Below are positions 51,901 to 51,997 of a stretch of 64,000 nucleotides of DNA, in pieces. The position numbers were made by a program, and so were the translations under genes. The notes below the pieces were generated by a model. That model did no database searches. It worked only from the letters and a program-made list of their open reading frames with translations, and was not told the DNA's origin. The stretch's first letter is position 1. Each line of letters starts with the position of its first letter. Origin of the DNA: Demequina aestuarii. Its GTDB lineage: Bacteria > Actinomycetota > Actinomycetes > Actinomycetales > Demequinaceae. The stretch is taken from contig NZ_BBRD01000001.1 of assembly GCF_000975095.1 (NCBI RefSeq), positions 949,467 to 1,013,466 on the forward strand, written 5' to 3'.

Positions 51901-51906
51901 TATGGT
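51901..51906 (+). promoter_or_regulatory. -10 hexamer of the leucine leader transcript
   Basis: TATGGT, six bases, then the ATG of the leader peptide at 51913. A GTGACC at 51877-51882 could be the -35 with an 18-bp spacer. Transcription would start at the leader peptide itself. Confidence 0.5.
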
Positions 51907-51912
51907 GAACGC

Positions 51913-51957
51913 ATGCGCGCACGCTCGCTTCTTCTTCGTCGCCGCGACGAGGCCTAG
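51913..51957 (+). CDS. leuL: Leucine leader peptide (14 aa, three consecutive Leu codons)
   Basis: The frame encodes MRARSLLLRRRDEA then TAG. Three adjacent CTT leucine codons sit just before a strong hairpin and 79 bp before leuA. CTT is rare in this high-GC sequence, which would make translation sensitive to charged tRNA-Leu. Leader peptides of this sort have been predicted upstream of actinobacterial leuA. It is too short for usual gene callers. The evidence is positional and compositional; no homology can be shown for so short a peptide. Confidence 0.65.
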   Translation: MRARSLLLRRRDEA

Positions 51958-51997
51958 CACCAGGCCGGCTCCTCGTCGCGGAGGTTGTCGCGCCGGC
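51942..51997 (+). promoter_or_regulatory. Attenuator of leuA: two mutually exclusive hairpins
   Basis: Hairpin A pairs CCGCGACGAGG (51942-51952) with CCTCGTCGCGG (51971-51981), an 11-bp perfect stem that begins inside the leader peptide's Arg codons. Hairpin B pairs GCCGGC (51964-51969) with GCCGGC (51992-51997) and CCTC (51971-51974) with GAGG (51981-51984). Segment 51971-51981 is shared, so only one can form. A ribosome stalled on the Leu codons, or passing them, would shift the balance. Which form terminates is inferred, not shown. Confidence 0.6.

Follow-up and report, generated by a model that had tools for sequence, protein, structure and literature searches.

The leuA gene of Demequina aestuarii is preceded by a LEU element, an RNA structure named before actinobacterial leuA in 2005 by Seliverstov et al. 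(PMC1262725). Of the parts given in the available text of that paper, a leader open reading frame (ORF), a base stem between leucine codons and the Shine–Dalgarno sequence (here P0), a pseudoknot and a site before an actinobacterial leuA are found in the window, by which we mean the whole 64-kb stretch of DNA analysed. The reading towards which we lean is that leuA is under the control of this element, in which a leaderless leader ORF with leucine codons is joined to a pseudoknotted RNA, and that this control most probably acts on translation initiation. Both a leaderless leuA leader and the LEU element are already known in related bacteria, and the window is a new instance. Comparison among genomes supports the leaderless layout, the ORF, a hairpin (P1), a pseudoknot helix (P2) and P0, the last of which coevolves in the window's clade. 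The mechanism of the element was unsolved in 2005, as far as the available text goes, and a directly testable model can now be offered, because the element occurs in most genomes of the order, has a fixed leaderless layout and displays coevolution between sensor codons and ribosome-binding site. If true, the model would describe a very compact amino-acid switch.

The leuA locus and the comparison set

The source genome is a Demequina genome of 2.79 Mb, and the letters and coordinates of the leader region are confirmed as first reported. The ORF upstream of the leader, which we take to be era by its motifs, ends at 51869, and 78 nt separate the leader stop codon from leuA. The product of leuA is a full 2-isopropylmalate synthase, and the closest LeuA among the best 80 of 595 confirmed stretches is that of Demequina activiva (90%). 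No covariance model of Rfam 15 reaches its gathering score anywhere in the 64-kb window, and none matches within 51850–52060 at E-values up to 5. The features of the locus are as follows.

51877–51882, + strand: possible −35 element GTGACC, weak, 18 nt upstream of the −10 hexamer (sequence)
51901–51906, + strand: putative −10 hexamer TATGGT (TANNNT 6–7 nt from the leader start in 80/80 informative loci)
51913–51957, + strand: leucine leader ORF MRARSLLLRRRDEA followed by a stop codon, probably leaderless, with transcription presumed to start at the A of the ATG (sequence, layout conservation)
51928–51936, + strand: candidate sensor codons CTT CTT CTT, three leucines (sequence, codon counts)
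51932–51941, + strand: P0 5' strand UUCUUCGUCG, the anti-Shine–Dalgarno sequence, in Leu and Arg codons (pairing tests, minimum-energy fold)
51942–51952, + strand: P1 hairpin 5' arm CCGCGACGAGG, within the leader ORF (minimum-energy fold, covariation analysis)
51963–51969, + strand: P2 5' strand GGCCGGC in the P1 loop, forming the pseudoknot (pairing and swap tests)
51971–51981, + strand: P1 hairpin 3' arm CCTCGTCGCGG (minimum-energy fold, covariation analysis)
51992–51998, + strand: P2 3' strand GCCGGCU (pairing and swap tests)
51995–52010, + strand: small hairpin GGCUGA/UCAGCC (minimum-energy fold)
52018–52027, + strand: P0 3' strand CGACGAAGGA, holding the leuA Shine–Dalgarno sequence (pairing tests, minimum-energy fold)
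52036–53778, + strand: leuA, 2-isopropylmalate synthase (TIGR00970, 857.9 bits against a cut-off of 697.4; Pfam HMGL-like, IPMS_D2 and LeuA_dimer)

The comparison set consists of 81 loci, i.e. the best 80 of a capped list of 595 confirmed LeuA stretches from a contig scan plus the window. Two alignments of the 81 leaders took in 77 (A1) and 62 (A2) of them. The group referred to as cellulomonads also includes Promicromonospora, Isoptericola, Kineococcus and Jonesia.

Leader ORF and leaderless layout

The preliminary description placed a TATGGT hexamer six bases before an ATG that opens MRARSLLLRRRDEA and proposed a leaderless leucine leader, and both points are borne out. The ATG lies at 51913, six bases past the hexamer, and the ORF stops at TAG, 51955–51957. 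Alignment of leuA leaders across related genera, which had been proposed as a check, revealed TANNNT 6 or 7 nt upstream of an in-frame ATG or GTG in all 80 informative loci of the comparison set (best 80 of 595 plus the window), loci which are not independent because the genera are related; L005, for which there is no upstream sequence, was excluded. The spacing is 6 nt in 66 of these loci and 7 nt in 14, as given by a tally separate from the initial layout scan, which had accepted 4 to 9 nt, and the start codon is ATG in 38 and GTG in 42. As background, 7 of 3480 ATG/GTG triplets (0.2%) in the upstream sequence of the same loci have TANNNT at this distance. The distance from −10 to start stays constant in the 80 loci although the sequence between them varies. 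A −35 element is weak, since four or more of the five TTGAC positions match in 18/80 loci compared to 293/5000 random places, and a scan for the strict sigma-70 consensus called no promoter at 51700–52200.

In Streptomyces lividans, the leuA leader MRFGLLLLSCRGEGL is reported to be leaderless by 5'-end RNA-seq, and the −10 motif in that species, TAnnnT, lies at a mean of 6.3 nt from the start, according to the parts of PMC8079986 available; this spacing fits the layout seen here. Because of the conserved spacing and the S. lividans RNA-seq, the leaderless claim is well supported and already known for this family of leaders, and a leucine leader ORF translated from the RNA 5' end without a Shine–Dalgarno sequence probably lies ahead of leuA. 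A common peptide pattern among the leaders is LLL(L)(R/S)(C/R)R(D/G)E(A/S), and the stop codon falls 3 to 15 nt beyond the 5' arm of P1 in all 80 loci of the comparison set. Outside the order, the hexamer lies about 10 nt upstream of the ATG in some copies (e.g. L130, L137 and L138).

Hairpin P1 and pseudoknot P2

An 11-bp hairpin at 51942–51952/51971–51981, said to begin inside the peptide, does so and overlaps the end of the ORF. P1 is present in all 81 loci of the comparison set (best 80 of 595 plus the window), with 9 or 10 of 10 arm bases matched, and in 62 distinct sequences 99.8% of 620 cells are paired, compared to 24.0 to 70.5% for versions of the helix slid along the alignment. Six of the ten pairs are invariant. 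Changes on both sides occur at three of the ten, in 16 cells compared to a shuffle mean of 2.7; further pair types do not rise above the shuffled level (290 of 500), and when the helix is slid by −3 its covariation score, 0.126, slightly exceeds the 0.117 of P1 itself.

The P1 loop is predicted to pair with sequence 3' of P1, forming an H-type pseudoknot, P2. At least five Watson–Crick pairs are found in 56 of the 81 loci of the comparison set, compared to a mean of 28.3 and a maximum of 40 in 5000 swaps, and at least six in 22 loci, compared to at most 18; at a threshold of four or more pairs there is no excess (67 loci, at most 70 in swaps). The pair types include GGGCC/GGCCC, AGCCGG/CCGGCU, GACCGG/CCGGUC, AAGCC/GGCUU and AGACC/GGUCU. 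A swap test of the helix score gives P 5e-5 over all 81 loci, 0.018 in 24 cellulomonads and 0.001 in 41 Microbacteriaceae, and is not significant within 11 Demequina (P 0.89), where the helix hardly varies. The folding tool ignores pseudoknots. The small hairpin at 51995–52010 would compete with the 3' strand of P2, and similar ones are seen by eye in several Demequina only. Another hairpin, P3, formed by the end of the ORF and the P1 loop, was attractive by eye and was rejected, with a swap-test P of 0.56 overall (0.05 in Demequina, 0.15 in cellulomonads, 0.95 in Microbacteriaceae).

Pairing between leucine codons and the leuA Shine–Dalgarno sequence

In the window, P0 comprises 10 bp with one G-U pair and abuts P1 without a gap. 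The minimum-energy fold contains both P0 and P1 (−56.2 kcal/mol, z −2.1, with 6/200 shuffles as good). When the window leader is recoded synonymously, 2.85% of 2000 draws reach the native energy. Set against other gene starts in the window, the Leu run gives an equally good duplex energy with 14 of 36, so that this control does not discriminate and P0 pairing alone is not specific, which is as expected if the CUC/CUU run mimics an anti-Shine–Dalgarno sequence in general. The sequence GGATCACCTCCTT, a putative 16S tail motif, occurs twice in the genome.

Support for P0 comes instead from coevolution, which is strong only in the window's clade and in cellulomonads and weak elsewhere. In the swap tests, each run was paired with its own or with another species' Shine–Dalgarno region. 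Within groups, the helix score gives P 5e-5 in Demequina (n=10), 0.008 in cellulomonads (n=24) and 4.5e-4 in Microbacteriaceae (n=41). By duplex energy, with duplicate run/Shine–Dalgarno pairs removed, P is 0.0023 in Demequina (n=10) and 0.0015 in cellulomonads (n=23), and the signal is weak in Microbacteriaceae leuA (n=35, P 0.054) and in the leuC copies described below (n=14, P 0.083). The native P0 beats the median synonymous recoding in 9/10 Demequina, 19/23 cellulomonads, 19/35 Microbacteriaceae and 9/14 leuC copies. A larger Demequina set, in which 39 elements were read (L150 was not found) and 30 were distinct, gave −11.6 kcal/mol with the own Shine–Dalgarno sequence compared to −9.8 kcal/mol when swapped (P 0.0002); one row, L154, was kept though its leuA start is probably mispicked. 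Compensating changes in Demequina include UCCUUCGUCG/CGACGAAGGA, UCCUUAGCUG/CAGCUAAGGA and UCCUUCGCUG/CAGCGAuaAGGA, where lower case marks bulged bases.

Codon usage in the leucine run

The run at 51928–51936 does consist of three consecutive rare CTT codons: by counts from 37 window ORFs chosen by a simple GC3 rule, CTT makes up 45 of 1247 leucine codons in the window (3.6%). The last codon of the run is CTT in all 81 leuA leaders (best 80 of 595 plus the window). In the same leaders the second position is CTC in 47, CTT in 31, CTG in two and ATT in one, and the first is CTC in 38, CTT in 28 and CTG in 15. Outside the order, the run ends in CTC in six loci (L100, L105–L109), so CTT is not universal.

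The last CTT of the window lies in the strand complementary to the leuA Shine–Dalgarno sequence. CTC would be decoded by the same tRNA as CTT, so that pairing accounts better than slow decoding for the preference for CTT at the last position within the order, although slow decoding may also play a part. The rare CTT codons need not serve solely to slow the ribosome. If the pairing model is true, it would account for the presence, at the end of the run in all 81 leaders compared, of a codon that is rare in this GC-rich genome (3.6% of leucine codons in the window).

Proposed mechanism and alternatives

The leader's ATG would itself be the start of the transcript. With ample leucyl-tRNA, ribosomes would pass the Leu codons, terminate just beyond the 5' arm of P1 and leave; a ribosome at the stop codon would cover that arm, and after its release the whole element could refold. 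The freed RNA would form P1 together with the P2 pseudoknot and the base stem P0; in P0, the Leu codons and those that follow would pair with the leuA Shine–Dalgarno sequence and so turn leuA off. Under a shortage of leucyl-tRNA, a ribosome would stall on the Leu codons, where it would cover the anti-Shine–Dalgarno strand and fray the base of P1, leaving the Shine–Dalgarno sequence free and LeuA to be made. A ribosome whose A site holds the last Leu codon would be expected to cover the whole 5' strand of P0 and the first pairs of P1, and the distances would fit such occlusion. The model predicts leuA to be ON under leucine shortage and OFF otherwise; where transcription begins, that the ribosome stalls, in what sequence the steps follow and which way the switch turns are what we infer here.

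The preliminary description had instead proposed ribosome-mediated attenuation of transcription, in which the position of the ribosome selects an antiterminator or a terminator ahead of leuA. The overlap of the Leu codon run with a strong hairpin would suit this, and the corresponding sites of Corynebacterium glutamicum and S. lividans are annotated as attenuators in the published texts available, but a search of 51700–52200 found no terminator-like site, T-runs between hairpin and leuA are at most 4 nt in 81/81 loci (best 80 of 595 plus the window), and the S. lividans leuA has no typical Rho-independent terminator according to the accessible parts of PMC8079986. The second hairpin of that proposal (51971–51974/51981–51984) is present in the window, but a conserved alternative antiterminator was not found, as all four of its pairs are retained in only 9 of the 81 loci. 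Classical attenuation is thus improbable in our judgement and that part of the description is not upheld. The lack of an intrinsic terminator would leave room for Rho, which Seliverstov et al. raise for actinobacterial cys leaders in the available text (PMC1262725): a finished leader ORF would expose RNA up to leuA, and a stalled ribosome or RNA structure would block Rho. However, much of the 78 nt from leader stop to leuA is paired in the predicted fold, and coevolution of Leu codons and Shine–Dalgarno sequence would be left unexplained, so we regard Rho-dependent attenuation as unlikely, if slightly less so than the classical form.

Seliverstov et al. themselves discard attenuation owing to earlier mutagenesis in Streptomyces coelicolor and favour a protein ligand, as their text, seen in part, has it (PMC1262725). 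In that proposal, a conserved actinobacterial protein (orthologs of ML1624 were suggested) would bind the pseudoknot and the leader ORF would be secondary. The very high conservation of P1, with its six invariant pairs of ten in 62 sequences, speaks for such a protein, yet conservation of the in-frame Leu run and of the leaderless layout equals that of the RNA in the 81 loci (best 80 of 595 plus the window), and in another family the run becomes Val/Ile/Leu while P1 stays, which points to codon reading; we think a protein-binding element as improbable as classical attenuation. The S. coelicolor Leu-codon mutants are described in two ways in the available text of PMC1262725: in one place they are said to have some effect at odds with classical attenuation, in another to have none. 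Under ribosome occlusion, such non-classical results would be expected, because a change of Leu codons would also break P0.

Beyond control of leuA, a broader proposition can be held only tentatively, at somewhat less than an even chance. The Leu codons would be both sensor and repressor, in that the CUC/CUU run spells the anti-Shine–Dalgarno sequence and a ribosome awaiting leucyl-tRNA directly relieves leuA of repression without need of another hairpin. The core of P1 and pseudoknot would be a leaderless module that can be moved between genes, which actinobacteria also use upstream of leuC and, in a form with Val/Ile/Leu codons, upstream of further genes.

Relation to known leaders

The Leu-codon/Shine–Dalgarno stem and the pseudoknot were already seen by Seliverstov et al., whose LEU element shares with the window's the Leu-codon leader ORF, the base stem, the pseudoknot and the place before leuA (PMC1262725, available text). 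The window extends the element to a further genus. That text never uses the word ‘leaderless’ and favours a protein ligand, whereas ribosome occlusion is favoured here, and the leuC copies and Val/Ile/Leu versions found here are not described in its available parts. LeuL1 of the S. lividans leuA shares the leaderless Leu leader peptide and the lack of a typical intrinsic terminator; its start was mapped by RNA-seq, whereas ours comes from sequence, and the accessible text leaves its mechanism unsettled (PMC8079986). The leuA leaders of C. glutamicum and Corynebacterium diphtheriae likewise consist of a short ORF with four Leu codons, and the available portions of the papers on them (PMC4046766, PMC3890552, PMC5784534, PMC8709942) describe attenuation, make no mention of pairing between Leu codons and Shine–Dalgarno sequence and give the C. 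diphtheriae start as unmapped. The mycobacterial leaderless polycysteine attenuators (Canestrari et al. 2020, cited in PMC9031893) share a leaderless amino-acid-sensing short ORF upstream of operonic genes, a likeness drawn from the title; they differ in sensing cysteine and in the genes that follow.

A literature search, with most subscription journals outside its reach, found no paper giving the leuC copies or the occlusion model in the texts available. In ermC-type translational attenuation, stalling of a ribosome on the leader ORF likewise exposes the Shine–Dalgarno sequence of the gene that follows, by rearranging a separate set of hairpins, whereas here the sensor codons themselves would be the sequestering strand.

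Distribution and further copies

A model, R1, built on 62 LeuA leaders, was found in 46/47 genomes of the family (E 0.05; G435 matched weakly, E 0.0018), in 254/297 genomes of the order (E 0.01) and in 57/396 genomes of the phylum (E 0.01), where matches below about 31 bits may have arisen by chance. In the window's genome there is one strong copy. Weak second matches in Demequina (L188–L190) and in the window's own genome (L191 and L192, two of ten) have no leader-like layout and were taken as chance.

Further copies are common in one family, f5, where 21 of the 22 genomes matched by R1 in the order scan have at least two. This is probably Microbacteriaceae, because named Microbacterium loci have the same leuA leader, MPFGGLLLLSCRDES. 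Among 20 regions fetched for second copies in f5, 17 lie before leuC (L119–L123, L170–L175, L177–L182) and three proved to be leuA copies (L168, L169, L176). For L119, leuC was identified through NCBIfam from a 150-residue fragment; in the other 16 regions it was recognised by eye. All 17 have a leaderless-looking Leu leader of their own and P1, with 6 or 7 nt between hexamer and start, a count rather than a test given that the script required 5 to 8 nt. Overall, 40 extra-copy regions gave 27 leaderless candidates and 13 without one; some of the 13 are chance matches, and five (L126, L130, L131, L137, L138) have a hexamer about 10 nt before an ATG.

A version with Val/Ile/Leu codons (e.g. MTQRVVILIRRGEFR; L207–L218, L124 of family f4 and L126 of f3) keeps P1 and, by eye, P2. 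What comes directly after it is a conserved ORF of about 26 residues (MSEEAQKARQALQESMDLREQGHSDD) rather than leuB, which lies beyond that ORF and, in several loci, is separated from it by a hairpin and has its own leaderless-looking start. This version shows no P0 coevolution in the swap test (n=12, P 0.20), a weak test because in some rows the start chosen for the small ORF probably lies too far upstream. The small ORF occurs in 10/149 genomes of the order, has no Pfam match and was not found in the window's genome or in 10 other Demequinaceae genomes. Elements with Leu-Val codons also precede short proteins in L130, L132 and L137; the L130 protein matched no Pfam family, and the L132 protein has a match to the LeuA allosteric domain (PF08502, E 2.4e-6). 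In L131, from family f9, a leader MRKQLVVIACRGGAS precedes a 31-residue ORF, which is followed by leuB.
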